Shown one piece after another: positions 2,564 to 61,768 of a stretch of 64,000 nucleotides of DNA (the first letter of the stretch is position 1; the number at the start of each line of letters is the position of its first letter). The stretch covers positions 1,054,001 to 1,118,000 of the forward strand of contig NC_089452.1 of the NCBI RefSeq assembly GCF_026210795.1, given 5' to 3'. The stretch comes from Rhizophagus irregularis. Its lineage: Eukaryota; Glomeromycota; Glomeromycetes; Glomerales; Glomeraceae. The notes beneath the pieces were generated by a model. That model did no database searches, had not been told where the DNA came from, and saw only the letters and a program-made list of their open reading frames with translations. The translations under genes and the position numbers were made by a program.

Positions 2564-4106
2564 CCCTATAAGAAATATGTATACGGAAAGGATACGTTTT
2601 GTATACATTTTATGTACGTTTCTATAGATTCCGCATACAAATTCCGTATATTTAATAAGCAATTCATTTTTGAACATTTTTTAAAAAAACTAATGTATAC
2701 GAAATGTATACGGAAAAAATTAATCATACGGAATGTATACGGAATTTTTAAACTTAATATTTTTAGAAAATAATTTTACAAAAATCTCGTATCATAACAC
2801 GAGATCACGTGATTGTTTATTGTTTTGTTATGATACGTTTTTTGTTTTTTATATAAACCCTTACTTTGATGAGTTTGATCTTCCGATCTTCTTTTCTGTC
2901 TTTCCCTTCCTTCTCTTTTCTCTTGTCTTATTTTTGTTATTTTTTCTAAATTTTTCTTCTTTTTTCGTTACCCCCCTTTTAAAAAAAAATTTTTTTTTTC
3001 GTACTTCACTTTAAAAATTTTTTTTTCGTCACTCCCTTAAAAAAAAAATTTTTTTTTGATTTTATTCTTTATTCCCACTATTCCCACTCTTCTTTTTTGT
3101 AAAAAAAATTTTCTTCTTTCTATTTCTATTTCCTCTTTATAAAAAATTTTTTATTTTTCTAACTTTGACGTCCTCCCTTTAAAAAAAAATTTTTTTTAAC
3201 TTTCCTACTTCGTTACCCTCTTTTTAAAAAAATATTTTTTTTTGATTTATTCTTTATTCCCCTTTCTTTTTTATTTATATATATCCCTTTTTTTATTTCA
3301 TAGGCCAGCAGATTTTTTTTTGTGAGAAGATTCAGTTTCTTTTTTCTTTTTTGTAGATCAGTTTGGGAGTCCTTTCCTTTTTGTAGGATTGTTAGGATTT
3401 TTTTCTTTTTTAGGTCAGTTCAAATTTTCTTTTTTTTTTTTGTAAGTTGGGTTCAGATTCTTTTCTTTTTGTAGGTTGTTTCAGTTTTGTTGCTTCAGAG
3501 TGTAGGTCAGTTTTGGATTTATTTTGTTGTTTTGGTTTCTTTTTCATCAGTTGCTTCATAATTCTTTCATTTATGTAGGTCAGACATTCTGAAGTTCTCT
3601 TTCTTTTTTTGTAGGAATGCTGACCTTTGGTGACTTGGACGATTGCAGATACTATATGAAGGGGGGTTTTGTTTCCAATTAAGTTAGACGTTCTTATGTT
3701 TCTTTTTTTTGTTTTTTTTTAGGTTGTTTGACTCCAAATGAACCTGAACTTATAGATAATTTTGATTGCAATAGGTGGTTTTAATGAGGAGGGAATTTTC
3801 ATAATGTATTTGTATTTTGTTTATTTTTTATTTTTAATAAAGTAAAATTAGATTTATGTAAATATAATTATAGTAAACTGTAATACAAATAGTAAATTCA
3901 GTGACCAAATCGTATAAATTTCGTGATAAAATCAGTGATCAAATCATGTAAATTCCATATGAATTCCGTGCAAATTCCGTATCCAAACCATATTTTTAGT
4001 GATACGGAATTGTGCATTTTTCCGTATCCTATTATGATACGTTATTTCTAAGGAAAAAAATCGTATAAAAACTTTATAAAAAACGTATCCCAATTTTTTT
4101 ATAGGG
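2564..4106. mobile_element. Non-autonomous DNA element with CCCTATAA termini
   Basis: This 1,543-base element starts CCCTATAAGAAAT and ends with the complement of CCCTATAAAAAAATTGGG. It is flanked by the 3-base direct repeat ATT (2,561-2,563 and 4,107-4,109). Both sub-terminal zones carry many copies of ATACGGAA/TTCCGTAT and GATACG. The centre (about 2,870-3,730) is almost pure pyrimidine on the plus strand. I see no transposase. The poly-Phe frames in the centre are low-complexity artefacts. A second, 180-base element at 23,275 shares the termini and the 3-base duplication, which supports a real family. The superfamily is not certain; 3-base duplications fit CACTA- or Harbinger-type elements. 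Confidence 0.6.
3340..3730 (+). repeat. Array of splice-acceptor-like T-rich units
   Basis: Within the CCCTATAA element, units of roughly 25-70 bases each end in TTTCTTTTTGTAG followed by GTCAG, GATCAG or GTTG. About eight such TTTTTGTAG(G) ends are visible between 3,350 and 3,725. Each has the polypyrimidine tract plus AG layout of a 3' splice site. The units are degenerate and no open frame follows them. Confidence 0.5.
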
Positions 4107-5770
4107 ATTAAGTTTGATACTTTAAATAAATCATCAACTTGTCTTATAACGTAACCAATGAGAAAAAGAGATTGAACTAATCGTCAAATGATCACCTGTA
4201 CTAGATGTAATCTAATTTATTTTTTTATTTTTTTAATTTTTAAAAAAAGATTTAATGATTATTTTCTTTGGGTATTCTTTTTTTTTTACATAAATAATAA
4301 ATAAATAATTATCTCCAAAATATCATCATGAGGAGGTTCCTCATTGAGAGAAAATTTCCTGTAAACCTAACTACATCACAGATGTAAAATCGGGAATCCA
4401 TTTTGACCTTTGCCTTCGCGGCTTCGCCCCTCCACGAATAGACCTTCTTTCATTAGGACAATATCATAGTCTTCTATTAAAAGTATCATTCCGTCTATGA
4501 CAGTATTTACAGACGACATTTGAGTAAAAATGAAAGATCAATACGGGGAGGATAGTAATTATTGTGAAAGTATTAGACAGGATTTTTGCTACCTTTTGTT
4601 AATACTACGGATAGAACTGGTTATGCCAAAATAGTTCGCGGTTTGTATTATGCAGGATGATCTTACGGGTGAGATTAGGTGTCAACTTTGGAATGTTTGT
4701 TTTATTACTTTAATTTAGAGTAATTGCTACACCTCTGTTTCTGTCATTATGCTAAAAATAAAAATAAAAATAAAATATATTAAACCTTTCCCGGTTAATA
4801 TTTCTCAAATAAACTAAATTTCTGGCAATGAAATAGATCTCACCACTGCGCATCTCAAGATAATGATACTTAGTGTTATGGAGAGTAGCCCCAATGTTTA
4901 TAAGCACGCTCACGATAATTTTATTTTTATTTGCAATTTGTTTAGAAATTTAAGTTTAATGTCTCCAAATCCATACTTCAAAAATTTACTGGTATTAAAG
5001 TATTCATATTGCTTGTAAATTGTAATAGCAACTGAACACCTAAAATATTATCATAAAAATCATTTATTGAATATGTATCATCATGTGGCAACTTAGATTA
5101 TTACTTTATGATCCCTTTTCTAATTGAAATTGATATATTATTTTTTATTGTAGACAAAATGGTTGATAGTGAATTAAGGATGAATAATCAATATGCTCTA
5201 CAAATATTATAATTTCATACATTTTTATAAGATCGTTAAGGAAAAATTTACTCCCAGGCTCCTGCGGAACATGGGATCAACCAATCAAATTTAATTTACT
5301 CAATATTATAGGTATTCAGCACGAAGTGCCTAATGGTTAATTATTACAAAATAGGATAATTAATAAACAGTATAATTATTATTCATCTGATAGATAATTT
5401 TTATGTTGTTTAAATTTTGGAAAATTCCAACTAGAAATTTACTGTATACAGTAATTTATTGAATTTTTTTGTCTTTTAAAAAGGAATTAATACAATTATC
5501 ATTCAATTAAATCACAGGAAAATCAAAATTTACATAAATTATTATATGGTCTTATTTTTGTTATTAAAAAAGTTAAATCAAATCCTTCGGAGATATTTTT
5601 TCCGATTCATTGATCTACTAGACTATTACTGCACTAGTAGTTAATCTTGTAGTACATTATGATATCATCAACTATCACGCATTTTGACTGTGTAAGTTTC
5701 TGCTCTTTATACTAATAAAATCTGTATTTTAAGTTTTTAACAACAAAATGATATCACAATTATGTAATTG
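4107..5770. other. Intergenic with a retroposon-type tail
   Basis: No gene is supported. At 4,638-4,778 there is a sequence starting GCGGTTTGTATTA and ending in a (TAAAAA)n tail. It is homologous to 8,229-8,374 on the other side of F-box gene 1. About 4,380-4,640 is locally more G+C-rich than its surroundings and may be the decayed body of the same retroposon. The last 200 bases are upstream DNA shared with the other F-box genes. Confidence 0.4.
4638..4778 (+). repeat. Retroposon 3' end with (TAAAAA)n tail, copy 1
   Basis: The copy begins GCGGTTTGTATTA, passes through a diverged middle, and ends with TTCTGTCATTATGC plus four or so TAAAAA units. The copy at 8,229-8,374 has the same beginning, the same end and the same orientation. 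A simple A-rich tandem tail is typical of LINE or SINE 3' ends. No reverse transcriptase is readable next to it, so this is a truncated or non-autonomous copy. Confidence 0.5.
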
Positions 5771-5815: not shown

Positions 5816-5854
5816 ATTAAAAAATTTCTTTTTTTTTAAAAATAACCAAAAAAA

Positions 5855-7261
5855 ATGTCCAATTTAAATAGGGATATTCTTTATTTGGTATTCGAACAAA
5901 TACAAGATGATGATAAAAAAACTCTTTTTTCATGTCTTTTAGTTAATAAAACTTGGTGTGAAATAATTATTCCAATGTTATGGAGAAATCCTTGGGAACA
6001 CTTAAATAGTGAGAACGGAATGATATTATTAAATGTAATCAATTCACATTTATCAGATGTAACAAAAAACAAAATAAGGGAACATATGATATTCACCGAT
6101 TTTGATCAAAAGCCTTTATTTAATTATATTAGTTACTGTAAACATTTAAATTTAGATGAAATCCAGAGAATAATTGACGAAAATGTCAACGAAAAATCTG
6201 AAATATCAAATATTCAAAATGAAATATTTAATATTTTTATTAATGAAAATATGAAATATAGTCACCTTTATGTATATCAAAATTTTGATAGTCAAATAAA
6301 TTTTATTAATGGAGCTGAACGTTGCTTCTCTGAAATCGAATTTCTTAGTTGTAATACTGATGTAAATGATAATATTATAACAATATTAACAGAAACATGT
6401 AAGTCAATTAGAAAATTAGAACTTTTTATTAATTTAAAAAATAATAATTATGGAATTATTAAGTTGATTGAAGAACAAAAAAAGTTATCTGATATTAGTT
6501 TAACTCGTACTCACTTTGATGATATTTCATTTTATGAAATTTTAGAGAATTCATTAACTAAACATGCAAGTACCATACAATTTTGTAAGTTTACCAGATC
6601 CCCAACAAAACTTCTTTCATCTTGTATAAATTTAAAAAAATTAGAATTAGGTAGTAAAATACGTAGTATCTCCACTTCATGGTATTGTCTAAAAGATTTA
6701 TCTTTTCCTTATTTACAAATTTTAAGATCTAGTAGTGTTCCAGTTGATGTCATGACAAGTTTAATAATAAATACAAAAGGATTTCTTGTTGAAATTAAAA
6801 TAGATTGTATATGGTATGATGAAACTAGGAGTAAAATACTTATTCAAGCTATTTATCAAAATTGCCCAAATATTAAGTATCTCAAATTAAAGATTGGAAA
6901 TTGTAGCATCTTAGAATTAGAACCATTGTTAATTAGTTGTAAGTATTTAAAAGTATTATATCTACTTATTGGTGAAGGTCAATTTGATTGGAATAAGTTA
7001 TTTGAAATATTTACTAAATCATCATCATCTAGTTTATATAAGTTTAAATTTAATATTAATGGGCAACCTAAATTAGAATCCTATAAATTATTTTTTGATA
7101 ATTGGAAGGGAAGACATCCTATGTTTTTACAAATCTTTTCCAATGTAATTATTGATTTTAATTTTAATATAATAGAAAGATATAAAAAAGAAGGAATAAT
7201 TAAAAAATTTGACAGTTGTTATTGGTGGGACCAAGGAACTAAAGATTTTGAATTTAATTAA
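5855..7261 (+). CDS. F-box / leucine-rich-repeat-like protein 1
   Basis: A single-exon gene of 468 residues. Residues 3-45 form an F-box (LNRDILYLVFEQIQ, then SCLLVNKTWCEIIIPMLWRNPW), the segment that binds Skp1 in SCF ubiquitin ligases. The rest consists of irregular leucine-rich repeats of about 25 residues (for example CPNIKYLKLKIGNCSILELE and CKYLKVLYLLIGEG), which would capture the substrate. A family-specific C-terminal module follows: a FFDNWKGRHPMFLQIF motif and an IIERYKKEGIIKKFD helix. The start follows a poly-T/poly-A leader shared with its paralogues. Five close paralogues lie in this window; this one groups with those at 27,621 and 40,977 (same MSNLN start and C-terminus). The substrate is unknown. 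F-box families of this type are strongly expanded in Glomeromycotina. Confidence 0.9.
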   Translation: MSNLNRDILYLVFEQIQDDDKKTLFSCLLVNKTWCEIIIPMLWRNPWEHLNSENGMILLNVINSHLSDVTKNKIREHMIFTDFDQKPLFNYISYCKHLNLDEIQRIIDENVNEKSEISNIQNEIFNIFINENMKYSHLYVYQNFDSQINFINGAERCFSEIEFLSCNTDVNDNIITILTETCKSIRKLELFINLKNNNYGIIKLIEEQKKLSDISLTRTHFDDISFYEILENSLTKHASTIQFCKFTRSPTKLLSSCINLKKLELGSKIRSISTSWYCLKDLSFPYLQILRSSSVPVDVMTSLIINTKGFLVEIKIDCIWYDETRSKILIQAIYQNCPNIKYLKLKIGNCSILELEPLLISCKYLKVLYLLIGEGQFDWNKLFEIFTKSSSSSLYKFKFNINGQPKLESYKLFFDNWKGRHPMFLQIFSNVIIDFNFNIIERYKKEGIIKKFDSCYWWDQGTKDFEFN

Positions 7262-11065: not shown

Positions 11066-11069
11066 TTAA

Positions 11070-11082
11070 GGCTAGAGTACAC
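11070..11082. repeat. Left terminal inverted repeat with TTAA flank
   Basis: GGCTAGAGTACAC is preceded by TTAA. It matches the inverted right end exactly for 13 bases, or 15-17 if part of the TTAA is counted. Confidence 0.85.
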
Positions 11083-11346
11083 ACTGTAGATCATTTTTCA
11101 CTAATCATAATGGCTAATCAAAAATGATCGACATATATATAGTGCATATGTAAATTTTTCGTGTTCAAAACTTTTTTTTCGATAAAACCTAACGTTTAAT
11201 AAAATAATTAGCTTTTTTATATACAAATATTCATACTTATGAAGACAAGTTCACTTTTTTTTACGCGTATTATATGTATTTATTTCTTTTAGTCTTTTAA
11301 AATTATTAATAAAGTTAAATTTTTAGTTTCGTTGTAAAAAAATAAT

Positions 11347-14300
11347 TTATTGTTTGAAACAATATTGCCATGTAATACGTGTTACTTCTTCTTCAGCATT
11401 ATCTCCCAATCCAACTATTATTGGTTTGAATGAAAAGTTTTTAGTCAAAGCTGCTGTCTTTCGAAGCTGAAAATTCAAAATCAAAAAGCCTTTAACACAT
11501 AGATCATCTATAACAAATAAAACATTCTCTTTATTTTTTATTTTTCGTTCAAATGGTTCATTATAAATAGATAATTCTGAAAGTCCAAGTTCGTTGGCTC
11601 TTTTTAATTTACAAAAAACTGCTGCAATATCCAAAGGTATCATTTCACTTATTTTTCTAGATTCCAAAATTTCTTTGGCAATTTTTAGCAGTCTAACCAC
11701 ATCAGCTGAAAAGTTATTCCATACCGGATTATTGTTTGAATTTAGTAAACAATTATCACATAATCCACATGCTTCATTTGAAATATCTTCATTCCATGAA
11801 AGATGATGTGCAATCAATAAATGGCGACAAACATATTTTGTTTCGCAGAAGTGAACCACTTGTAATATTTTTTGTTGACCCTCATAATGTCTTACTCTTT
11901 TTGCTAATGTTTCACTATTATTCTCTTGCGGTGGACTAACCCATTGTCAAAATTTATTATTAAAAAAAAAAAGACAAATAAATAATCATACCTCTCTTCT
12001 CTTTGTGTAATTATTGAAAATAAGGTTCGTATATCATTTCTTGAATAAAACACAATACTTTTTGAGGGTTTTCCATCACGTCCTGCTCGTCCAATTTCTT
12101 GTATAAAATTTGCTAAATCAAAGACACATTAGCATATGATTTTACAATAAAACATTAGCAAAAAAATACAATACATACTCATTGACAAAGGAATAGTTGT
12201 ATGTATAATCAGATATACATCTGGCACATTAATCCCCATACCAAAACCATTAGTTGCTATCATAATTTGAATAATTCCTGTTTTCCAATTTCTGATTGCC
12301 ATTTTACGCTGTTCTCCATCTAATTCGCCATGATACAAACCAAATGATAATGCTGAAAGATTTTCATGCAGATAGTGAAACAATTCTTGACAAGAACTAG
12401 GTCCTGAACAATAAATAATGCATCTTCCAGTCGTCAAGCCAACCAAAATATTTTGTATTTGAGAATATAAATTTTGTTTTGAAGGTTTTGATATTACTTG
12501 AATATCAATTTCTTGTCTTGCCAATGAAGTACCACGAATAATAGTAAAATTGGTTGGTAAAATATTTAAATTCTGCCGTATATCTTCAACATCAGATGTT
12601 GTACATGTTGCAGTTAATAGCATAATAGGAGAGATTGGAAAGTCTTTTTTAAGATTTCCTAAACGTGTCCAAGAATCTCTATAATACAGAATTCTAATTT
12701 ATAATTAATTCAAAATTTTATTATACTCTTTTTAAAACACTTACCTAAAATTGTTGTAATCAAGTATACAATGAGCTTCATCAATAACAAATTGAATTCC
12801 TCGTGTTTCATATATTTTTTGAAGAAATTGATGAAATGATTTATTTTTTTCTAACTTTTCAGGAGTTACAAATAAGATAGGTAAAATTCCTAAAGACAAT
12901 TCAGAAAAAACACGTTCTTGATATTCAAAAGATTGTCCTGTAGATGCATAAAGCCCTGCAGCAGGAATTCCCATACGAACAAGACTATTCTATAATTCAA
13001 AAAAATTATTGGTAAATATCAAAAAAAATTGTAAACAAAAATAAGATATTACCACATGATCATCAATCAATGCCTTTAAAGGAGTAAAAACAATGGTTAA
13101 ACGAAAAGAAGCAAGAGCAGCCATTGCAAAACATAAAGTTTTACCACCTCCAGTTCGCAACACAACCAAAGTATCTTTGTATTCCAAAAATGAACATATG
13201 GCTTCATATTGTCCTTCGCGAAAATTTGAAAATCCAAATACTTGCTTAAGTATCTGATTTAAATCTGGTATATGTTTGGAGAATGGTAGCTTATCATCCG
13301 TTATTTGAACTTTATTTTCAGGTATTCTTTGAATAAATCCCAAATCATTCCAAAGATTACATATTTTGCAATATCCATTTGGAAATTGTTTGGGAAAGGA
13401 CTGACAGCCAATACATTTGTTTGAGACATCATAAAATCCATCAATCAAATCTGCAAAAGAAGGACAAAATGTTTTAGATTCTAATTCAACACGTGTTTTT
13501 TGTCCATATGGAACTAAACTCTTATAGCCATAGTTATAATATAACATTAGTATTAATATTGAAGTAATGTGATTATAATAAATATATACCTGGTCAAAAT
13601 CAAACATTTCCAAATTCTTTTTTTGTTGTACAATTTTTGCAACTTTAGCAGCTTTTTGCGTATCCATATCCTGGTGATTTCTTTGTCTTTGCAATTCACG
13701 TCTACCAGCAATATGTTCAATATTTTGTACATCATTTTCAGAAAATGTATCTAATTCTGCTTGAGTACGCACATTTTGCAACATTGCTAATAAACTTGAA
13801 TTATTGTGAATCACCGCTAAAGCATGTCGCACAGAATATGTTTTCCAATAATCAATTAATTTTGAAACAAAACTTAATTTTTGTCTATTAAATGCCTCAT
13901 TTTGAGATGTTCTAGCATCCGTTATAAGACTTTGTCCAACATTCAATTGAAAAACTTCACCAAGCATTTCAGTAAATTTCTTTCGTTCTTCAGATGTACT
14001 GTTTAAAAGATTTGGTTCACAAAGTGCCAATTCGGGATTTTGGGCTATCCAACATACTTCTGGCCAACATTCTGAATGATCACCACATAAATGTTTTGTT
14101 AACCCATATACTTGTGCATATTTTACTGACTCGGTTGTAAGTGGTAAATCTTTTTTGTTTTCTCCTTGTACAGCTGCAATAAATATACATTTTTTATAAT
14201 ATTGTAATATTACGTCTTCATAATGTGAATAACGCTCCCATTTTTTAGCTATAGTAAAATAATTCTTTATAAATAATTTAAATAAAATAAATAATAAAAA

Positions 14301-16077
14301 TAATATAAAATTGCTTACAATTTAATTTTTTCCTAATATTACGCGTTAAGTGTTTAAGATCAGGAAAAATTTTATTTACACATTTTACCCCACGCAAAGT
14401 TTTATTACTATCAAGATCACCATCTACTACAATATCTAAAAGCATATCTGTTTCTTCTAAAATGGGAACCACTATTTCAAGTATTCCAATAAGTACTGCA
14501 TGTTCCATTTGTTTAGAACTTGCTTCGTGATTTCCTTGATGTACTGTTGTTTTATTTCCATTCTTATCTTTTTTAACACGACTTTTTTCTACAACAAAAT
14601 ATCCAACAACTGGTTTGCGAGTATATCCTATTAATAGAATTTGATAAATTTATCAATTTATTAAATATTATAAACATAACAAATTATATTTACCTTCGGG
14701 AATTCCATGATATATAAATTCCCCACTAGCTTGTGATGCATTACGTACATGTGACCATGATGTGTCAAATCCGACTGTTAAAACATTTTTCCCCTTTTTT
14801 TTAGCATCATCAATTGACGCATATAATGCTTTTCTAGTATTTTCTAAAGCAACATTTTTGATATTTTCACTCATTGATTTCTGATATTTATGATAAATAG
14901 TTTTACTAGGCAACTTAGTAATTCCAATAGTTAACATTGCATTTTGAAACTCTTGACGATTCAATCCACTACACAATGTAGCAGCAGCAAATGCTTTTGT
15001 ATAATTCACATTTGAAGGCTCGTTTTGAAAAGATGAAGTTTCTTTACATTTTTTGCATTGAATTACTACTTTAACTGATAATCCACCCGAAGATATTTTA
15101 CATTTTTTTTGTGAAATATCATTATTTCCACAGGAGCATTGCTGTGTTAAGGCCAAAGATAGGAATGATTCAGTACTGCATATAATGCTGCTACCAAGAT
15201 TTTCATCATTTTTTAATTGTCTAATTTTTTCATCAAGTAGTTCTTTTTGTTTTTTATTATTGTTTTGTTTAGGAGATGGAAGCAGTGTTCTTAATTTTTC
15301 AAGATTATTTTGTGCTCGTTTTAAACGTTTATTAGCCTGATAAAATTTGTTTTGAACGGTGTGAAATTTAAATACTAGGGCTTGACTTTGTCGAGGCGTA
15401 AGCTTGTGTCCCGAAGTTGAAAAGATCAGGCCACTCTTGACTTTTTTGTTAGGCGATCCTTCCTCTTCACATTCCTTATCTAGTTCAAGAGCACGCTTAT
15501 TCAATGATTTTGTAAATTTATTCATTTTCGTAATAGCGCTATAAGCTTCTTTTGATGATAAAAACATTTCACTATGTAAGTGATAAATAACACTACGAAG
15601 GTACATTGCATTTTCATAAATATTCAATCCAAGAATACTAGGTATAGATATTTTGCCCTTAATATCTCTTTGATTTTCAACATATTGGCGTAAAGATTGA
15701 AAAAATTTGCTATCTCTACCACTAGCAATCGGATTTCCCCTGAATGTGCTATCATTACCATAATCAATCCATTCAAATTGTAAAATATTATTACTTTCAC
15801 TAATAGAAAGCCGCAAAAAATGCGTCCCAATTTTTGACATAATACTATAACCAGGAATAAGGGGAACCCAACATTTTGTTTGTCCAGGATCGGGTTTTAC
15901 TGATGCAATAGTACAGAGTTGATATGCATGATCATTTTTGGATAGAACATGGTGGCAAGGTAATATATTAAGTAACTTCGTATCATCTCGTACAAGCCAT
16001 GTTCTATCTGCACGTTGAAAATTAACATATTTTTCGTTTGTCTTTTTTAGTTCTTCAAACCAAATTTGAGTCGACAT
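11347..16077 (-). CDS. DDE-type transposase fused to RecQ DNA helicase
   Basis: The exons are 16,077-14,694; 14,627-14,319; 14,248-13,590; 13,520-13,053; 12,989-12,745; 12,678-12,179; 12,112-11,992; and 11,935-11,347. The seven GT-AG introns are 56-70 bases and all phases agree, giving 1,424 residues. N-terminal part: a coiled-coil/Lys-rich stretch and a Cys cluster (CSCGNND..CKKC), then a Mutator-like DDE core. The probable catalytic residues are Asp438 (VGFDTSWSH), one of Asp530-534 (VVDGDLDSN) and Glu682 (TSQNEAFN), with a CGDHSECWPEVCW Cys/His patch before the Glu. Residues about 820-837 hold another CxxC pair. C-terminal part: a RecQ helicase with Walker A TGGGKT (about 907-912), DEAH (about 1010-1013), motif VI QEIGRAGRDG, and a RecQ zinc-binding module ending CGLCDNC. 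It would cut and move the element, with the helicase acting on DNA ends or repair intermediates; the latter is inference. Confidence 0.88.
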
Positions 16078-16488
16078 TATTCTATAAAAGTAAAACGCCT
16101 TATTAATATCTTTTTTTTTCAATATATTATATCATATACTAAAACTATATTATAAAATATAAATTTTTACTTTTAAAACCATAAAAATAAAGATTTTTTA
16201 ATGTATATACAAAGATTCTAAGGATGTTACTTATGACAAACTAAAAAATTGGCAGCCTTACCGAAAAATTGGCAACCTTTCTTTGACTTCGTATATATTT
16301 TAAGGTATATTGGCAAAATAAAAACAAAATATTTTTTTTATATTGCGTGCAGAGCAGACCGCAAGGAGTCTATAAATCAAGTTTGAAGCTGGTTTGGCAC
16401 GTTTTACAATTTTTTTATCAGAGCGATCTGATCTTGTATTACTTTAAAATCATCGTGCTACCACGTGATTATCAAAATTAGTTATACG

Positions 16489-16501
16489 GTGTACTCTAGC
16501 C
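16489..16501. repeat. Right terminal inverted repeat with TTAA flank
   Basis: GTGTACTCTAGCC is followed by TTAA. It is the exact inverse of the left end. The 410 bases between it and the start codon would hold the element's promoter; no TATA box stands out. Confidence 0.85.
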
Positions 16502-16505
16502 TTAA

Positions 16506-27544: not shown

Positions 27545-27585
27545 TGCAACGCAAATGAATATTTAAGCTGTTTTTGGCGAAAAAA
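27545..27585 (+). promoter_or_regulatory. Shared promoter block of F-box gene 2
   Basis: TGCAACGCAAATGAATATTTAA followed by TTTTTGGCGAAAA lies 76 bases before the ATG. It is nearly identical to the block at 40,911, and the order of motifs matches 5,771. Confidence 0.5.
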
Positions 27586-27620
27586 ATCTTTTTCTTTGTT
27601 TTTTTTTTAAAAAAAAAAAA

Positions 27621-29036
27621 ATGTCCAATCTAAATAGTGATGTTCTTTATTTGATATTCGAAGAAATACAGGATGATAAAAATACACTTTATTCATGTCT
27701 TTTAGTTAACAAACCTTGGTGTGAAACAACTGTTCCAATTTTATGGAAGAATCCTTGGAAAAATTTAAAAGAGAAGAATGAAAAGTTATTATCAAAAGTA
27801 ATAATATCACATTTATCAAATGTATCAAGAAACAAAATAAGGGAATATAAGTTATTGACCAATTTTTATAAAAAGCTTTCATTTAATTATATTCGTTATT
27901 GTAGACATTTAAATTTAGATATAGTTCAAAGAATAATCATTAATAATAATGATATCTATGAAAAAGATAAAAATTTAAATGTTCAAAACGAAGTATTAAA
28001 TCTTTTAATTAATGAAAATATGAAATATACTCATCTTTATATATACCAAAATTTCGACAGTCAAATACATCTTACTCATGAGGCTAAACGCTGCTTTTCC
28101 GAAATTGAATTCCTTAGTTGCAGTACTGGTATAAAGGATAATATTATATCTATATTAACAGAAACATGTAAATCAATTAAGAAATTAGAACTTTTTATTA
28201 AGTTAGTGGATAATAATTATGGAATTGTTAAATTTATCGAAGCTCAAACAAAGTTATTTGATGTTGGTTTAATTCGTACTTTCTATTATGATGGAACATT
28301 TTACGAAATCCTTGAGAATTCATTAATTAAACATGCAAGTACCATACAATATTTTAAGATTACAAGACGACCCTCAACAAATATTCTTTCATCTTTTATA
28401 AATTTAAAGGAATTAGAATTGACTTGTGCTGCACAATGTGTCGCTTCATTGAATTACTTAGAAAATTTATCTTTTCCTTTTTTGCAAGTTTTAAAATCTA
28501 ATAATATTCCAATTGAAGCTTTAACAAGCTTAATAATGAATACAAAAGGATTTCTTGTTGAAATTAAATTAGATTATATAAGAAATGATAGACATGATGA
28601 AATTAGCAATAAAAAACTTATTCAAGTTATTTATCAAAATTGTCCAAATATTAAGTATCTAAAACTAATAATTAGTAATTGTGGCATTTTAGAATTTGAA
28701 ACATTATTAATTAGTTGTAAGTATTTAAAAGTATTATATCTCATTATTGATGATAATCAATTTGATTGGAATAAGTTATTTGAAATATTATCAAAGTCAT
28801 CATCAACTAGTTTGTTTAAATTTAAATTATATTCTGATAGCTTACCTAAATTAGAATCCTTTAAGTTATTTTTTGATAATTGGAAGGGAAGACATCCTAT
28901 GTTTTTACAAATCTTTTCCGATCCAGTAAGTATTGACTCAAGGATGATAGAAAGATATAAAGAAGAAGGTATAATTAAAAAATTTGACTGTATGCATTGG
29001 CGGAGAAAAAGAAATGAAGGTTTCGATTGGACTTAA
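27621..29036 (+). CDS. F-box / leucine-rich-repeat-like protein 2
   Basis: A single exon of 471 residues. The F-box spans about residues 3-45 (LNSDVLYLIFEEIQDDKNTL, CLLVNKPWCETTVPILWKNPW), and irregular leucine-rich repeats follow to about 400. The C-terminal module is LFFDNWKGRHPMFLQIF, then MIERYKEEGIIKKFD. It is the closest relative of the 5,855 gene: shared KAKRCFSEIEFLSC-type and YGIVKFIEAQ segments occur at the same spacing. The start follows twelve A residues after a T run, as in its paralogues. Likely a substrate receptor of an SCF ubiquitin ligase; the target is unknown. Confidence 0.9.
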   Translation: MSNLNSDVLYLIFEEIQDDKNTLYSCLLVNKPWCETTVPILWKNPWKNLKEKNEKLLSKVIISHLSNVSRNKIREYKLLTNFYKKLSFNYIRYCRHLNLDIVQRIIINNNDIYEKDKNLNVQNEVLNLLINENMKYTHLYIYQNFDSQIHLTHEAKRCFSEIEFLSCSTGIKDNIISILTETCKSIKKLELFIKLVDNNYGIVKFIEAQTKLFDVGLIRTFYYDGTFYEILENSLIKHASTIQYFKITRRPSTNILSSFINLKELELTCAAQCVASLNYLENLSFPFLQVLKSNNIPIEALTSLIMNTKGFLVEIKLDYIRNDRHDEISNKKLIQVIYQNCPNIKYLKLIISNCGILEFETLLISCKYLKVLYLIIDDNQFDWNKLFEILSKSSSTSLFKFKLYSDSLPKLESFKLFFDNWKGRHPMFLQIFSDPVSIDSRMIERYKEEGIIKKFDCMHWRRKRNEGFDWT

Positions 29037-31600: not shown

Positions 31601-31737
31601 TTATTTAGCATCATTTCTTTCTAATAATTTTTCCAACTTAACTAATATTTCACAATGAGATTTTTCTAATGTTTCCAACTTACCTAATATTTCCAACTTA
31701 TCTGATTTCTCTGATTTCTCACAATAAGATTTTCCTA

Positions 31738-31915
31738 ATGTTTCCAACTTATCTAATTTCTCTAATTTCTCTTCTAATTTCTCTAACTTATCTAATTTCT
31801 CTAATTTCTCTTCTAATTTCTCTAACTTATCTAATTTCTCTAATTTCTCTTCTAATTTCTCTAACTTATCTAATTTCTCTAATTTCTCTTCTAATTTCTC
31901 TAACTTATCTAATTT
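31738..31915 (-). repeat. 39-base coding minisatellite (coiled coil)
   Basis: About four copies of a 39-base unit encode the 13-residue repeat LDKLEKLEEKLEK in the channel protein's tail. Copies are nearly identical at DNA level, so the array is recent. Repeat number would change the length of the coiled coil. Confidence 0.8.
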
Positions 31916-34719
31916 CTCATCATTAGATTTTACTTTCTCCAATATTACCCTATTGTCATTAAGATTATGTTTAATTTGAAGTTGTTTTAATAAACTTTCC
32001 TGCATCTCTGAAAATTCCTTAGTATCACATTCACCCTCTTTAATTAATCTTTCAATTTCTATCCGAGTCTTATCAGTATCAGCATAATAATGTCTTGAAA
32101 AATAAATTTGATTAGTAATTAATAAAATCATGACATTATATATATTTTTTTTTTAAAAGAAAAAGTAAAATTACATACATTACTTCAGGAAACCATGCCT
32201 GCCAACGTCTCTGATGTGGTAATAGGTAAAATAACTCAATCTCAGCCAAAATCTTTAAAAAGTAAAAATTGATAAATATCAGTATATTCAGTATATTTAT
32301 AGAAAATAGAATGATCAATATTAATATTATTTACTTCTGCCTTCTGTATCAAATATGAGACTCTATTATTATCTTCTTCAATTGCAATATTGAGCAATCC
32401 AATTAACAAGTTCATAAGATATACAACAATCAAGAGGGAAAATAAAACAATCAATATTGCAATTGATGGATTATCTGCATATGACCAATTGGATAATGCA
32501 CTTGAATCACCTATTGATAAGAAAGAAGAATTGCTTAAAAATATTAGAAAATACTTATACTGTATATAATTATGAAAGATTTAAATATACTGTACCTGCT
32601 AAAAATAAATATATAGCAAAAAGAGAAGTTCTAATATCTATAAACATGTTTGTATTTTTATCAGGCATTTGAATCATAAATGGGTTAGAGTTTATATTTC
32701 CATCATTATCAATTACTTGATTATAACTAGGAGCTAAATTCCAAGGATTATTCGGATCATCATTATTTGTATGTTGTTTAAGTGAAAATTCAGATTTTGG
32801 TGATAATAAAATATAAAATGCATGTGCAAAACTTATTATAATAATGAATATGACTAATAAAAAGAAAAAATCTTTTTTCCAACACTGATAATAATTGCAA
32901 AATATACACCAAAATATTCAAATGCTCTAAAAAATAACAAAAACTTTATATCCAAAAATAAGCATGAAAAAGAAAGCAATTGAATTAAATAATTATTGTT
33001 CTTATCATTTGTTTGAAGCCAATAAATAGAAGTATAAATTGAAAGTACATAAGCAATTATATCTGAAATATTAAAATATTATATAATTAATTAATTTCAT
33101 TTTCTTAAATATTGTAAATATATAAATTAAACATTTATATTACCAAAAATATTCCAAAAATTATAGAACCACTTAATAATATTATAAAAAAATTGACGAA
33201 TTTCAAAAATCAGATGAATAAATCCAAGTATAATCGAAGCAATGAAAAGTTGTTGTCTAACTTCTTCATTAATATATTGCTGAGATATTGTTGCAGCAGC
33301 AGTAAAGCATCCAAGTAAAGCCATAAATAAAATCCAAATCATTGCATAATAATGTTTTCCATAAGCGTTCCATTTAAAATTAATTAATACTTCACCATTC
33401 CATGTTTTATAGATATTTCTATTTATTGATTTAGTAAATGGACTAGGTTGAGGTCTAATTAATTCTAAGAACAAATTATAATCTTTTGAATAATTAACAA
33501 AATTAATATAAGGAATCATAAAAGTAATTGTTGGTGTTGTTATATTTTTTTGAAAGTCGTAATTAAATTCTTTAACAGTAAAAAAATAAGCCAAAGAAAA
33601 TACATCTGGAGTGTAAATATCATTAATAAAATTGTATTTTGATAAAATATAAATGTAGCCAAATAAAGGGGTAAAGTTAAAAGTATTATTAAAGCTTGAA
33701 TAGCATAATATATAATTAATAAAATAAATAATAAATATGTTTCACGATCAAATTTATAAAGTTCATGATAGTATTTTGTCCATAAAAGAGATTTCGATAA
33801 ATTAGCTAATTGAGGAGATTGAAAATAAGAATAAAGATGCAAATTGTTATTTTGACGTTCTATACTATAAAAAGAAGAATCTATTATCATATTTGTTTCT
33901 GATGAATATTTTAGAATATATTCTGGATAATATTCATCTAGTAATGGCATTGCAGAAGTGATAATACTTAAAAATGACTTATTGTTCATTGGATCCTCTT
34001 TAAAATAAGCCATACATTTTTTATAAATATCATCAATTAATTCTAGCTTATGTTCTTTAATCGCAAATTTTAATAATTCAACTCCATATTTCAAAAGACT
34101 TGACTTATTATTTATTACATCTGAAACCCATCCATTTAACCTAAAACTATCATAATTTGGTAATGGTAAAGTAGATTTTGAAAATATTCTTTTGTTATGT
34201 TGAAGTATTTCCATAATTTTTTTTTTATCATCTTTGAAATTCATAAAATAAAAATAGTTTAAAGAAATAGATTTGTTATTTTCATTAAAAGTATAAATAA
34301 GAATACCAAATGTCGTCAATATAACAATATCATTATTATTAAATAATGAGCTCGCAATTAAATCATAACCATCAAATGTATAAGGATTATTTTCAATTCT
34401 CGTGCTAATTAATTCCCATTTAGTATTAATTTTTTTGAAAACTTCTAGTTTAATTTTACCTATATCAGAATATATTTCCCAATTAATTAAATTTTCAATT
34501 GATTCAGTTAATTCTTTTTTACAACCGCATCCAATGGCTCTTTGAAATAATGTAGATACAGTATCCATGTATGGATTAAATGAATGAACATTTAAGTGAT
34601 TGTAAGTTTTCTTGTCATCATCATCACATTCAATAACTTTAGTTTTTGACATATTTTCGTAAAATTTAGATTTCCAAACACGTTCATTTAGAATTCCAAA
34701 CACAAACTTTGTTTGTTCG

Positions 34720-40910: not shown

Positions 40911-40955
40911 TGCAACGCAAATAAATATTTAAATGGTATTGGCTGAAAAAATACC
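40911..40955 (+). promoter_or_regulatory. Shared promoter block of F-box gene 3
   Basis: TGCAACGCAAATAAATATTTAA followed by ATTGGCTGAAAAA lies 66 bases before the ATG. It matches 27,545 base for base over TGCAACGCAAAT and AATATTTAA. Confidence 0.5.
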
Positions 40956-40976
40956 TTTTTTTTTAAAAAAAAAAAA

Positions 40977-42380
40977 ATGTCCAATTTAAACAGTGATGTT
41001 CTTTATTTGATATTCAAACAAATACAAGATGATAAAATTCTTCGTTTATGCCTTTTAGTCAATAAAACTTGGTGTGAAACAGTTGCTCCAATTTTATGGA
41101 AAAATCCTTGGAAATATTTAAAAGAGTGGAACGGAAAGTTATTTTTAAATGTAATCATTTCACATTTATCAGAAATATCAAGAAACAAAATAGGTGAACA
41201 TAAATTATTCAAAAATATTTATAAAAAGCCTTCATTAAATTATATTAGTTATTTTAAATATTTAAATTTAGATGAAATTCAAAAAGTAATTAATTTAAAT
41301 ATCATGGAAAAATCTAAATTATTAATTCAAAATGAAATATTTAATATTTTTATTAATGAAAATATGAGATTTACTCACCTTTATGCACATAAAAAATTTG
41401 ATAATCAAATAAAGTTTATTTATGGATCTGAACTTTGTTTTTCTGAAATTGAATACCTTAGTTGTAGTACTAGTATAAATGATAGTATTATGTCAAAATT
41501 AACAGAAGCATGTAATACAATTAAGCAATTGGAGCTTTTTATTGGAATGGAAAATAATAATTGTGGAATTATTGAATTAATTGGGGCTCAAAAAAAATTA
41601 TTAAAGATTGATTTAACTAGTCATACATATGGCAATGAATTATTTTGTAAAAATCTTGAAAATTCTTTGATTAAACATGCAAATACCATACAATATTGTA
41701 AGATTTGTAGACAACCTTCAACTAATTTTCTTGCATCTTTTATAAACTTAAAAGAATTAGAATTGGGTTGTGATATACGAGTCTTTACTTCATGGAATTT
41801 TTTAGGAAGTTTATCTTTTCCCTTTTTACAAATTTTAAAATCTAGTGGTGTGCCAATTGAAGCCTTAATAAGATTAATTAAAAATACACGCGGATCTCTT
41901 ATTGAAATTAAAATAGATCGTGTAAGACATGATGAAATTAGTAATAAAAGACTCATCCAAGTTATTTATCAAAAATGTCCAAATATCAAGTATCTTAAAC
42001 TATTGATTAGAAATTCCAACATCCTAGAATTAGAATCTTTGTTGATTAATTGTAAGCATTTAGATGGATTATTTATCCTTATTAGTCATGTTCAAGATCG
42101 TACATTTCTTTGGCCTAAATTGTTTGATATATTATCTAAATCATCATCATCCAGTTTATTTAAATTCAAGTTTAATTCTAATAGGTTACCTCAAATGAAA
42201 ACCTTTAAGTTATTTTTTGATAATTGGAAAGGAAGAAATCCTATGTTTTTACAAATCCTTTCTTATGATGCAATTATTGATTTGGGGATAATCATAGAAA
42301 GATATAAGTCAGAAGGAATAATTGAAAAATTTGAATATAATTGTCAGAACCATAAAATTGAAGATTTTGAATGGAATTAA
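40977..42380 (+). CDS. F-box / leucine-rich-repeat-like protein 3
   Basis: A single exon of 467 residues. The F-box is LNSDVLYLIFKQIQDDKILR and CLLVNKTWCETVAPILWKNPW (residues 3-44). Leucine-rich repeats follow (CPNIKYLKLLIRNSNILELE; CKHLDGLFILISH), then the C-terminal module LFFDNWKGRNPMFLQIL and IIERYKSEGIIEKFE. It belongs to the same subgroup as the 5,855 and 27,621 genes. The ATG follows a T9-A12 leader. Its 3' flank carries a tandem duplication (42,404-42,690). Presumed SCF substrate receptor; target unknown. Confidence 0.9.
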   Translation: MSNLNSDVLYLIFKQIQDDKILRLCLLVNKTWCETVAPILWKNPWKYLKEWNGKLFLNVIISHLSEISRNKIGEHKLFKNIYKKPSLNYISYFKYLNLDEIQKVINLNIMEKSKLLIQNEIFNIFINENMRFTHLYAHKKFDNQIKFIYGSELCFSEIEYLSCSTSINDSIMSKLTEACNTIKQLELFIGMENNNCGIIELIGAQKKLLKIDLTSHTYGNELFCKNLENSLIKHANTIQYCKICRQPSTNFLASFINLKELELGCDIRVFTSWNFLGSLSFPFLQILKSSGVPIEALIRLIKNTRGSLIEIKIDRVRHDEISNKRLIQVIYQKCPNIKYLKLLIRNSNILELESLLINCKHLDGLFILISHVQDRTFLWPKLFDILSKSSSSSLFKFKFNSNRLPQMKTFKLFFDNWKGRNPMFLQILSYDAIIDLGIIIERYKSEGIIEKFEYNCQNHKIEDFEWN

Positions 42381-56060: not shown

Positions 56061-57446
56061 TCATATCATCATCTTTACTTTTCCCAATTCAAAACCATCA
56101 TCATCATCACACAAATTACTATAATTTTCAATTATTCCTTTATCTTCATATTCCTTTAATAAATCTTCCATATGTTCTGCTGTTGTCATATCAAAACTTA
56201 ATAATATAGGACACCTGCCTACCCAATTATCAAAAAATGGTTTTAAAGGTATATAAAATGAATCAAATATAAGGTTGAATTTAAATTTAAATAAACCAAT
56301 AGGTGATGATTTTGTTAATACATCAAATAAAAAATTCCAATAATAAAGATTATCAATAATAATAAATAATGTATCTAAATATTGACAATTAATTAATATT
56401 TTTTCAAATTCAAAAATATCCCAATCTCCTATTCTTAATTTAAGATATTTGAGTTTTGGACAATTTTGATAAATAGCTTGAATGATATCTGTACAATCAT
56501 AATAGTCACAATAATCAATTTTTATTTCAATAAGAGATCCACAAGTACTTTTAATTAAATCTGCTAATCCTTTCTCTGAAAAAGATTTAACTCTTAAAAT
56601 TTGTAAATGAGGTAAAGAATAATTCCATAAGAAATCCAATTCTCTATTATCATCAAATTCCAATATTTTTAAATTTACAAAAGATGAAAGAACTTTTGTA
56701 GGTGATGTAGTTATCTTATAATAATATATGTTATTTGAATGTTTAATTAATGCATTTTCAATAATTTCATCAAACGATAAATCACGATGATAATTATGAT
56801 CTATTAAACTAAAGCTAAACAAGTTTTTTTGAGCCTCGATTAATCTACCAATTCCATTATTATATTTATGACCACCAAAACGAATTTCTAATTCTTCAAT
56901 TGATTTACAATTCTCCACTAATTCAAATAAAATATTATCCTTTATATCAGTACTACAACTAAAATATTTAATTCCTGAACAACAATTTTCAGTAAAATTG
57001 ATTTGATAATCAAAAAATTTGGGTATATAAAGGTGTGAAAATTTTAGATCTTCATTATTAAAAAGTTTTAACATTTCATTTAAAATTAAAGTAGTTTTAG
57101 ATCTTTCTTTAAATGAATTAATCATAAATCGGATTATTTCAAAATTTAAATGTTTACAAAAACTAATATAATTGAACAAAGGTTTTTTTTTATATAAGTA
57201 TATTAATGAATCACTTTGACTTAAATAATTTTTCGTTTCATCAGAAAAATGGGAAATTATTACATTTAATAATAATTTCTTATACTTCTTTTCTAATTTT
57301 AAAATTTTCCAGGGATTTTTCCATAAAATTGGAACAATTATTTCACAAAAAGTTTTATCAACTGATAGACATGAAATCAATGTATTTTTGTCATTTCGTA
57401 ATTCTTCAATTATCAAGTAGAGAACATCTCTGTTTAATATGGTCAT
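56061..57446 (-). CDS. F-box / leucine-rich-repeat-like protein 4
   Basis: A single exon of 461 residues. The F-box spans residues 3-45 (LNRDVLYLIIEELRNDKNTL; CLSVDKTFCEIIVPILWKNPW), then leucine-rich repeats (CPKLKYLKLRIGDWDIFEFE; CQYLDTLFIIIDN). The C-terminal module reads PFFDNWVGRCPILLSFDM, then LLKEYEDKGIIENY. It is closest to the 61,769 gene: both have an HFDYQINF-type segment, SLPHLQILRVKSFSEKGLAD and an acidic CDDDDGF end. Its upstream region has AAATATTTATTTAATCATTTTGCGCC, matching the other two genes of this cluster. Presumed ubiquitin-ligase adaptor. Confidence 0.9.
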   Translation of the reverse strand: MTILNRDVLYLIIEELRNDKNTLISCLSVDKTFCEIIVPILWKNPWKILKLEKKYKKLLLNVIISHFSDETKNYLSQSDSLIYLYKKKPLFNYISFCKHLNFEIIRFMINSFKERSKTTLILNEMLKLFNNEDLKFSHLYIPKFFDYQINFTENCCSGIKYFSCSTDIKDNILFELVENCKSIEELEIRFGGHKYNNGIGRLIEAQKNLFSFSLIDHNYHRDLSFDEIIENALIKHSNNIYYYKITTSPTKVLSSFVNLKILEFDDNRELDFLWNYSLPHLQILRVKSFSEKGLADLIKSTCGSLIEIKIDYCDYYDCTDIIQAIYQNCPKLKYLKLRIGDWDIFEFEKILINCQYLDTLFIIIDNLYYWNFLFDVLTKSSPIGLFKFKFNLIFDSFYIPLKPFFDNWVGRCPILLSFDMTTAEHMEDLLKEYEDKGIIENYSNLCDDDDGFELGKVKMMI

Positions 57447-57502
57447 CTTTTATTAAAAAAAAATCGTTCTTTTTTTTTTTTTTTTTTTGTTGGGATTGGG
57501 AA

Positions 57503-58295: not shown

Positions 58296-59681
58296 TTAAT
58301 AATTTTCTAATTCAATATCATCACAATTTTTGATCATCCCCTCTGTTTCATATTTATGTAACCAATATTCTATCTCTTTTGCATTATTAAAATTTAAAAA
58401 TATAGGACGTTTACCTTTCCAATTATTAAAAAATAATTTTAAGAATTCTAATTTAGGTTTTAATTCATAATCAAATGAATGAAATTTAAATTTAAATAAA
58501 TCATTTGGTGATAATTTAATTAATATTTTAAATAAATTCTCCCATTCAAAAACAATATCATTAATAACAAAACTTAATACTTTTAAATGTTGACAATTTG
58601 TTAATAAATTTTCTAATTCTAAAATATTACAATTTCTAAACATTAATTTAAGATATTTAAGTTTTGGACAATTTTTATAAATAGCTTGAATAATATTTTT
58701 GTTACCAATCTCATCATGAATTACACCATCAATTTTTATTTCAATAAGAGACCTATTTGTATTTTTAATTAAATTTGTTAATGGTTTGATTGAAATAAAA
58801 CTGGTTCTTAAAATTTGTAAGAAGGGTAAAGATAAATTCTCTAAACAATTCCATTCGCCAAAGTATCTATCTTCTAATTCTAATACTTTTAAATTTATAA
58901 ATGATGGAATTTTCGTGGGTCGTCTATTTATCTTAAAATTTTGTAAGGTGTTTGTATGTGTAGCCAATGAATTTTCAATAATTTTATCAAATGGTGATTT
59001 ATTTATGTAATAACTTTCTAATAAACTAAGACTAATTAATTTTTCCCGAGTTTTGATTAATTTAATAATCCCATAATTATCAACATCTATAGAAAGTTCC
59101 AATTCTTTAATTGATTTACATATATCAATTAATCCAATTAAAATGTTATCATTCATACTAGTATTACAACTAAGAAATTCGATTTCTGAAAGATGACGTC
59201 TCGCTCCAGGAATATGATATATTTGATAATCAAAATTTTTAGGTATATAGAGATGTGTAAATTTTCTATTCTCATTAAAAAAAAGTTTCAATATTTCATT
59301 CATAATAATTAAAATTTTTGATTTTTCATAAACTTCGTTTAAAGAATATATAATATAAATTATTTCTTTAATTTCCCCTAAATTTAAATGTCTACAAAAA
59401 CTAATATAATCAAATAAAGGTTTTTGATAAGAATTTTTAAATATATTAATCTCTTGATTCTTTAAATTATTTTTTGTTTCATTTGATAAATGTGAAATAA
59501 TTATTTTTGATAATGATTTTCTTTTTACTTTGGTCATGAATTTCCAAGGATTTTTCCATAAAATTGGAACAATTATTTCACAATAAATTTTATTAACTAA
59601 TAAGAATGAATATAATGTCTTTCTATCATCTTGTAATTCTTCAATTATTAAGCGAAGAACATCTCTGTTTAATTTGGACAT
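58296..59681 (-). CDS. F-box / leucine-rich-repeat-like protein 5
   Basis: A single exon of 461 residues. The F-box covers residues 3-45 (LNRDVLRLIIEELQDDRKTL; FLLVNKIYCEIIVPILWKNPW). The repeat region includes CPKLKYLKLMFRNCNILELE and CQHLKVLSFVIND, and the C-terminal module reads LFFNNWKGKRPIFLNF with the WLHKYETEGMIKNCDD helix. It shares features of both subgroups: the SEIEFLSCNTS and LQILRTS segments resemble genes 1-3, the C-terminus resembles 4 and 6. It is in tandem with gene 4, 850 bases apart, same strand. Presumed SCF adaptor. Confidence 0.9.
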   Translation of the reverse strand: MSKLNRDVLRLIIEELQDDRKTLYSFLLVNKIYCEIIVPILWKNPWKFMTKVKRKSLSKIIISHLSNETKNNLKNQEINIFKNSYQKPLFDYISFCRHLNLGEIKEIIYIIYSLNEVYEKSKILIIMNEILKLFFNENRKFTHLYIPKNFDYQIYHIPGARRHLSEIEFLSCNTSMNDNILIGLIDICKSIKELELSIDVDNYGIIKLIKTREKLISLSLLESYYINKSPFDKIIENSLATHTNTLQNFKINRRPTKIPSFINLKVLELEDRYFGEWNCLENLSLPFLQILRTSFISIKPLTNLIKNTNRSLIEIKIDGVIHDEIGNKNIIQAIYKNCPKLKYLKLMFRNCNILELENLLTNCQHLKVLSFVINDIVFEWENLFKILIKLSPNDLFKFKFHSFDYELKPKLEFLKLFFNNWKGKRPIFLNFNNAKEIEYWLHKYETEGMIKNCDDIELENY

Positions 59682-61014
59682 CTTTTTTCTTTATTAAAAA
59701 AAATATTTTTGGTTGAAAAGGCGTAAAATTGTTCAAATAAATACTGGTGTCAATTATTGTGGCGTTGTTACACTTGTTACACAGATTCCCTTGATTTAGC
59801 AATATTTGGTTCATCGATTTTGATTATGATTGATTATGATGGTTTGTTGATCTCAATTTTGCTGCGTCTACGTCCCTTTTTTTTGCGGCTAATTACGATA
59901 CATATTTCTATATTAGTAAGCGGTGATTTTAATTATTTTAATTTAATTAATCCAAATTCATTGTTTAAATATGTAAATCGATGTCATATTCCATTTTTAG
60001 TCATTGATTCATTTTAATATTATATCCATTTAAAATAAATATGAATTATAAACCGAATTGTTAATAATAACCGATTCTAGACTTTATTTGGTTAGTACAA
60101 AAAAATCTGTGTAAATGGAAATATCTATTAGAACCTTCGCCTCGGTTTTAGACCTAAGGAGTTTGGTCGCATGATCTAATATTTATTTACATAATAATGA
60201 CATTTGCTCTATTTTTGATTAATAAGAGGTGTGGCTTTTTCATACACTTTTTTTTTTCCGGAAAGTTCTGACATATTCTTCTATACCCAATTTTTTAATG
60301 ATTTATGCAGACAGGTTATCTGCGGTAGAATTTTATTATTACATGTAAATACGTTATTACGACTTCATTATTCGATTATAGAATATTTGTTTCGTTCCAA
60401 GCCACCTATTCCGTTCCAAGCCATTTATTTTTTAGAGTTTTCCGTTTACATTTTCCGTTCCTATTATTTCGTTTTCCGTTACGTTACAGATTAATTCATA
60501 TACCTTTTCCGTTCCTATTATTTCAGAGTTAGTTTTTCGCTCTAGTTGCTTGAAGAAACTTGATATAAATGTTATGGTTTCTGTAAAGAACCAACTTTCT
60601 CTTTCTTATAAACTCTGACTTCCTATATCTATAAAGTTTTTTTGAAAGAATATCACCAGCTTCAAGAAAAAATTTGTTTATAATAGTACCATGATCGTAG
60701 TAATAATTCCTTATACTTTTAATTAATATTATCACTCTCTAACGTTATTATCATAAAAATTGTCAAAAGATTGACAGCAAAAGGTAATTCCGGTGCTATT
60801 ACTTGTGTGATCGAGATTTTTTTTTTTTAATAAGACGTAGTTATATTGAACAAATTTTCGTATGGTATATAAAATAACTATTTTCTGATTGTTAAAAACA
60901 AATTTAGTAATACTTCTTATATCTCAAAAATTCAATCAAGTGAAACTCCTATAGCAGTACCCATATGGGGCGCTATCAGATTGTCTACTTTCGCAAGCCA
61001 TACATGCGAGGTTT
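59682..61014. other. Intergenic between divergent F-box genes 5 and 6
   Basis: Promoter block of gene 5 at 59,718-59,743. A loose CGTTCC-rich stretch lies at 60,393-60,525. No gene is supported; the frames at 59,757 and 60,231 have no coding signature. Confidence 0.4.
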
Positions 61015-61398: not shown

Positions 61399-61768
61399 CG
61401 AGGTTCTTGCTTTTAATTCGGCAAATTCAAAATAAAAAAATTCACTAATCATAGAATAATTATAACCTCTTGCAAATTATGGCTCTGTAAAAAAAAAATA
61501 ATAATTTCATGTGATTGGCAAAAATAACTGATTTTTTTTTAAAATAAAGACAGTGACGGAACGTTACAAATCTAGGCGCCGATCCCTTTACGAAAGCTAC
61601 ACAACCACCCAATCCCCGAAGGAATCGTCGTACATGTACAAATCAACTATTTAGTGTATGGCATGATCAACATAAAATCAAGGTTTGTACAACACGCGAC
61701 ATGACATAATATATGTAATTATTTTACGCCTTAACCAAAAAAAAAATATTTTCTTCCCCGTAAAAAAA
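61399..61768 (+). other. Upstream region of F-box gene 6
   Basis: A+T-rich DNA ending in the shared block TATGTAATTATTTTACGCC (61,713-61,732), about 40 bases before the ATG, followed by an A-rich leader. No other feature is seen. Confidence 0.4.

Follow-up and report, generated by a model that had tools for sequence, protein, structure and literature searches.

A probable full-length KolobokH transposon in Rhizophagus irregularis, predicted to encode a DDE transposase and a RecQ helicase as one protein

Does a mobile element of the arbuscular mycorrhizal fungus Rhizophagus irregularis carry a DNA helicase in the same polypeptide as its transposase, and to which lineage would such an element belong? 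The question is raised by positions 11070-16501 of a 64,000-nucleotide stretch of this genome (contig NC_089452.1, positions 1,054,001 to 1,118,000 of the forward strand; hereafter the window), where an earlier sequence-only reading had proposed a complete transposon with one fusion gene. The transposon found there is 5,432 bp long, ends in a perfect 13-bp terminal inverted repeat (TIR), has TTAA on both sides and encloses a single gene, and we consider it, with a probability of about 0.9, to be a full-length, apparently intact KolobokH transposon of the Kolobok superfamily. Its ends, which lie where the sequence-only reading had put them, are as follows.

11066..11069, no strand: left TTAA target-site duplication (TSD), from the sequence and from a single TTAA at a paralogous unoccupied repeat
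11070..11082, + strand: left 13-bp TIR, GGCTAGAGTACAC, from the sequence and a shuffle test
16489..16501, - strand: right 13-bp TIR, from the sequence and a shuffle test
16502..16505, no strand: right TTAA TSD, from the sequence

The two TIR copies agree with zero mismatches (chance matches, mean 0.00 over 100 window shuffles with up to 1 mismatch allowed), and the termini read GG...CC, that is, RR...YY. Across the genome searched for copies (146.7 Mb, 32 contigs), the exact string of TTAA plus TIR occurs three times, at both ends here and at one end of a truncated copy. When the flanks were joined with one TTAA, they matched a paralogous repeat on contig C10 (L040) at 84% (query 181-383), with the junction crossed gaplessly and one TTAA retained; in this comparison the left flank covers 20 bases (18/20 identical) and the right flank is T-rich. 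At a second repeat on contig C1 (L041) the junction is likewise gapless, with an altered TTAA. These two were the ones aligned among six foreign rows starting left of the TTAA, and the first supplies the kind of empty site that the sequence-only reading had named as a check. Searches with joined flanks gave no usable empty sites for three other insertions: 4 rows at 76-86% identity reach 2 to 23 bases past the L013 junction, and no foreign row crosses the junctions of L037 and L034.

The boundaries are also backed by other elements of the same genome. A second full-length copy on contig C7 (L005; 5,482 bp) is broken, has TTAA at its start and end, and is 83% and 79% identical to the element in two main pieces. 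Four short elements (L010, L013, L018 and L029; 768, 798, 756 and 1,765 bp) carry the TIR at both ends and are flanked on each side by TTAA; none of them was found to match the element's protein. Two members of a different family (L034 and L037; 5,743 and 5,752 bp, 98.3% identical) start with GGGTAGAG and are also flanked by TTAA on both sides. TTAA together with RR...YY termini was therefore present in every element with both ends readable (8/8: the element, the second copy, the four short elements, L034 and L037), a count that excludes L007 and L036, with one readable end each, and L035, whose left end is slightly diverged and whose right end was not found. Also among the matches listed by the DNA search are truncated pieces and several elements whose resemblance is mainly in the right end. 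The copy number among these matches is not high: besides fragments, they comprise one full copy and a broken one of full length. The transposase part has at least 72 genome matches (best candidates scored), and among the scanned loci 19 other places match the protein, with both halves on one strand at 9 of them.

Two observations concern these relatives in their own right. L034 (C28), L035 (C2), L036 (C8) and L037 (C29) form a separate KolobokH-type family at no fewer than four places, 98.2-98.9% identical over shared stretches, an identity that suggests recent transposition. L029 (24-1796; 1,765 bp) resembles the 768-bp type apart from about 965 additional bases in its middle, either a nested insertion or the mark of an older, longer form; a stretch of 242 codons is open within it.

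The enclosed gene was modelled as follows.

11347..16077, - strand: single gene, 1,424 amino acids, 8 exons, from in-frame joining, the second copy and deposited proteins
16077-14694, 14627-14319, 14248-13590, 13520-13053, 12989-12745, 12678-12179, 12112-11992 and 11935-11347, - strand: exons 1 to 8 of the gene model

All introns are GT-AG and 56-70 bases long, and the exons join in frame into 1,424 residues, as the sequence-only reading had proposed. Junctions 1-5 are found letter for letter in a deposited R. irregularis protein (P0001), the best database protein, whose 100% identity extends across 82% of the query; junction 6 is found letter for letter in a relative, P0016, in which junction 7 is similar. 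The second copy keeps GT-AG at 6/7 introns (the intron 1 donor differs) and is 81-88% identical in exons and 59-71% identical in introns. An alternative 7-exon frame that retains intron 3 is also open (1,447 amino acids); the spliced reading is supported because P0001, P0002 and the second copy agree with intron 3. Transposase and helicase thus read as one predicted protein, whose parts are these.

14052..15144, - strand: Mutator-like transposase domain PF20700, residues about 312-630, across introns 1 and 2 (Pfam, isolated region)
13896..14766, - strand: DDE core, from Asp438 via Asp530, DxxH (551-554) and a Cys/His cluster (617-630) to Glu682 (sequence, alignment, fold)
13359..13415, - strand: CxxC...CxxC cluster after the transposase and before the helicase, residues 820-838 (the first two Cys are the same in 6/6 aligned rows)
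11653..13289, - strand: RecQ helicase core and zinc module, residues 862-1323 (Pfam, PDB matches)
11350..11652, - strand: C-terminal segment past the zinc module, residues 1324-1424, possibly RQC-like, judged by position only

In the transposase half, the isolated region matches PF20700 (E 7.9e-17), which fits the Mutator-like core that had been noticed earlier. The acidic residues singled out at that time (Asp438, Asp530/532/534 and Glu682) are all present, with D438, D530 and E682 the same in the second copy. Between the second D and the E lies a C/DxxH motif (D551-L-K-H554), and between that motif and the E a putative zinc finger (H617, H622, C625, C630) whose pattern is invariant in 6/6 aligned rows. 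The N-terminal fold, which the sequence-only reading had proposed to compare with DDE structures, was approached through the predicted model of a relative (21-row alignment, mean pLDDT 66.6); a first model from a 6-row alignment had a mean pLDDT of 39.7 and was discarded as too poor. In Foldseek the model has DDE-transposase fold neighbours, the nearest solved ones being Hermes (hAT) and ISCth4. The likeness is at the level of fold only, with 8-13% identity in the rows examined, and the helicase is not in the aligned region.

The helicase half matches PF00270, PF00271 and PF16124 in Pfam, and RECQ1 and BLM chains in the PDB, bearing out the RecQ motifs and zinc module that had been read from the sequence. 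We then placed it in a tree of 31 rows, in which the element stands with 30 proteins from the database (28 from the 120 listed, out of 4,573 matches scored, plus P0005 and P0007); Glomeromycotina rows outside this sample number at least four (P0017, P0025, P0029, P0050). The element and 14 Glomeromycotina proteins formed one clade (100/100), outside which fell 15 other RecQs and a Diversispora RecQ that is itself glomeromycotan. Within the clade, P0016 corresponds to the second copy and is not an independent lineage, several of the 14 are near-copies of one another, and P0005 and P0006 are the only members aligned with an attached transposase. The topology fits a single putative helicase capture within the sampled sequences.

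Codons of the element were compared with those of the second copy, excluding broken-copy codons with gaps or stops. dN/dS was 0.23 (residues 1-300), 0.18 (301-700), 0.26 (701-860) and 0.16 (861-1424), and in each of the 4 regions third codon positions had changed most and second positions least. The transposase and helicase halves are both under purifying selection, the helicase being as constrained as the transposase; it follows that both matter to the element, and nothing beyond that.

The same comparison bears on whether a transposase gene might instead stand beside a separately expressed helicase gene, the two being fused in the gene model only. In favour of this, the gene has its coding sequence in eight separate exons, and P0011 and P0016, two proteins deposited under R. 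irregularis from different strains, each correspond to just one of the second copy's two parts. The second copy, however, carries a 185-base insertion in exon 3 (L005, about 3326-4174) and stops in register at the place where those two models part. Moreover, the frame of exon 4 continues without a stop from the linker to the helicase motifs, the linker is also under selection (the 0.26 above), and the deposited or predicted models of P0001, P0003, P0004, P0005 and P0006 run from transposase into helicase, several of them skipping internal parts. We consider the two-gene explanation improbable, and retain one fused protein as the better account.

To which lineage does the fusion belong? According to PMC9587614, the Kolobok superfamily has a TTAA TSD, 5'-RR...YY-3' termini and a DDD/E transposase with C/DxxH between the second D and the E, followed before the E by a zinc finger in almost all Kolobok except Kolobok1; KolobokH (Kojima and Bao 2022) is described there as a fungal Kolobok lineage encoding RecQ downstream of the transposase. 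All of the superfamily features are found here (TTAA, RR/YY, D438/D530/E682, DxxH and the zinc-finger pattern), as are those of KolobokH, a RecQ downstream of the transposase and a fungal host. Likened by its described features only, the element showed no difference from KolobokH in that text. KolobokE, KolobokP and KolobokD are, in the same text, likewise Kolobok transposases with an accessory enzyme, but theirs is a nuclease or exonuclease rather than a RecQ helicase (PMC9587614). The word Rhizophagus is absent from the main text of PMC9587614; PMC10989895 places a KolobokH structure like that paper's own primarily in R. irregularis, citing Kojima and Bao 2022.

The sequence-only reading had left placement open, naming helicase-bearing Academ elements and the TTAA of piggyBac or Sola; its complete TTAA element with a DDE-RecQ fusion gene stands, whereas Academ and piggyBac fall away on TSD and termini. 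An Academ-superfamily element of the AcademH type, another helicase-bearing DNA transposon lineage, would agree with the helicase and the fungal host, but AcademH TSDs are given as 9-10 bp in PMC10045372, against TTAA in 8/8 elements here, and we regard that placement as extremely improbable. piggyBac was rejected as well: TTAA is common to both, but the termini here are RR/YY, a Kolobok distinction, and the Pfam match is to PF20700. A new TTAA superfamily outside Kolobok with a convergent RecQ fusion might be suspected from the profile search with the transposase half, which listed 12 proteins, 10 from Glomeromycotina and 2 unnamed environmental ones, with no named Kolobok of other lineages among them (best-sharing candidates scored). 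The presence here of the Kolobok features described in PMC9587614, with the zinc-finger pattern after C/DxxH and before E among them, speaks against such a superfamily, which we judge very improbable.

Several results nonetheless weigh against a KolobokH fusion element. Membership is assigned by defining features, not by a tree with named members. One half alone is found at 10 of the 19 other places, partly because the scanned stretches were short. The deposited models P0001 and P0002 are without helicase segments, including motif VI; this reflects an artefact of the gene models or else damage to the allele in that strain. PF20700 did not appear in the Pfam scan of the whole 1,424-residue protein, nor in any of 6 relatives at E up to 0.1, although database annotation lists it for P0001; of 4 further relatives, P0011 and P0010 have it and P0012 and P0013 do not. 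Finally, Foldseek gave low TM-scores (0.11-0.13 by query in the Hermes rows), the relative's model being long and partly of low confidence.

Inside the ends, three further features could serve as sites for the protein.

16245..16254, + strand: subterminal direct repeat AAAATTGGCA, copy 1 (repeat search, right-end alignment)
16265..16274, + strand: subterminal direct repeat AAAATTGGCA, copy 2 (repeat search, right-end alignment)
11085..11133, no strand: imperfect palindrome, two 24-nt arms, 79% complementary, a possible transposase site (similar sequence in the second copy)

The AAAATTGGCA pair, two exact copies with starts 19-21 bp apart and about 220-260 bp from the right end, was present in all six family members (6/6: the element, the second copy, L010, L013, L018 and L029), and in neither L034 nor L037 (0/2; one off-place one-mismatch match in each). 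At up to one mismatch, the element contains 4 matches (2 of them elsewhere and inexact) versus a mean of 0.72 in the shuffled element. In the aligned right ends, 141/335 columns are invariant, and both 10-mers are among the 7 invariant runs of six or more. Since the pair is kept in four short elements that lack a match to the element's protein, it is a candidate binding or control site.

Elsewhere in the window, six similar long open frames (5846-7261, 27567-29036, 40947-42380, 56061-57449, 58296-59690 and 61676-63163; starts like MSNLNRDVLYLI) suggest a local cluster from an expanded gene family; one of two scanned has a weak F-box-like match, PF12937, below the cut-off. A 39-base tandem array (4.7 copies, 97% matches) lies at 31735-31918.

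What might the helicase do? The fusion protein would bind the TIRs and subterminal repeats, its DDE core would excise the element and insert it at TTAA, and the attached RecQ, as a 3'-5' helicase, would open or clear DNA ends and strand-exchange intermediates, allowing repair of the donor gap and the target joints. Coupling of excision with end processing or repair, which the sequence-only reading had suggested, is a plausible proposal. We lean somewhat towards action after cleavage, in gap repair or transpososome clearance, which is the most economical guess because RecQ helicases act in gap repair: work cited in PMC5386867 gives Drosophila Blm a role in synthesis-dependent strand annealing, whereas in the human cells of that paper itself BLM knock-down raised synthesis-dependent strand annealing. 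Help in opening the ends before or during cleavage seems unlikely, and some other role a little less likely still. A role in setting the target cut is argued against, because the TTAA duplication is the same as that described for Kolobok in general. In the literature searched, we found no experimental work on the role of the KolobokH helicase. A more speculative and rather doubtful proposal is that RecQ was captured once in an ancestor of the glomeromycotan elements and selected as strictly as the DDE core, so that the element would depend less on repair by the host; working in cis on the gap left at its own donor site, it would promote repair copied from a template, by which the donor copy is restored, and the fusion protein would be loaded at the AAAATTGGCA pair. 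We do not favour this copy-restoring idea, because the family is without high copy number among the matches listed.

This kind of element is already described in fungi as KolobokH, and the present copy adds a well-bounded, apparently intact member to that lineage; the analysis contributes a test for selection, a helicase tree giving one clade and a pair of subterminal repeats that is conserved. The element offers a system for asking directly whether transposons of the cut-and-paste kind can bring their own machinery for repair or end processing rather than use the host's, and the four shorter relatives, which resemble it in their ends and share the subterminal repeats, are ready-made substrates.
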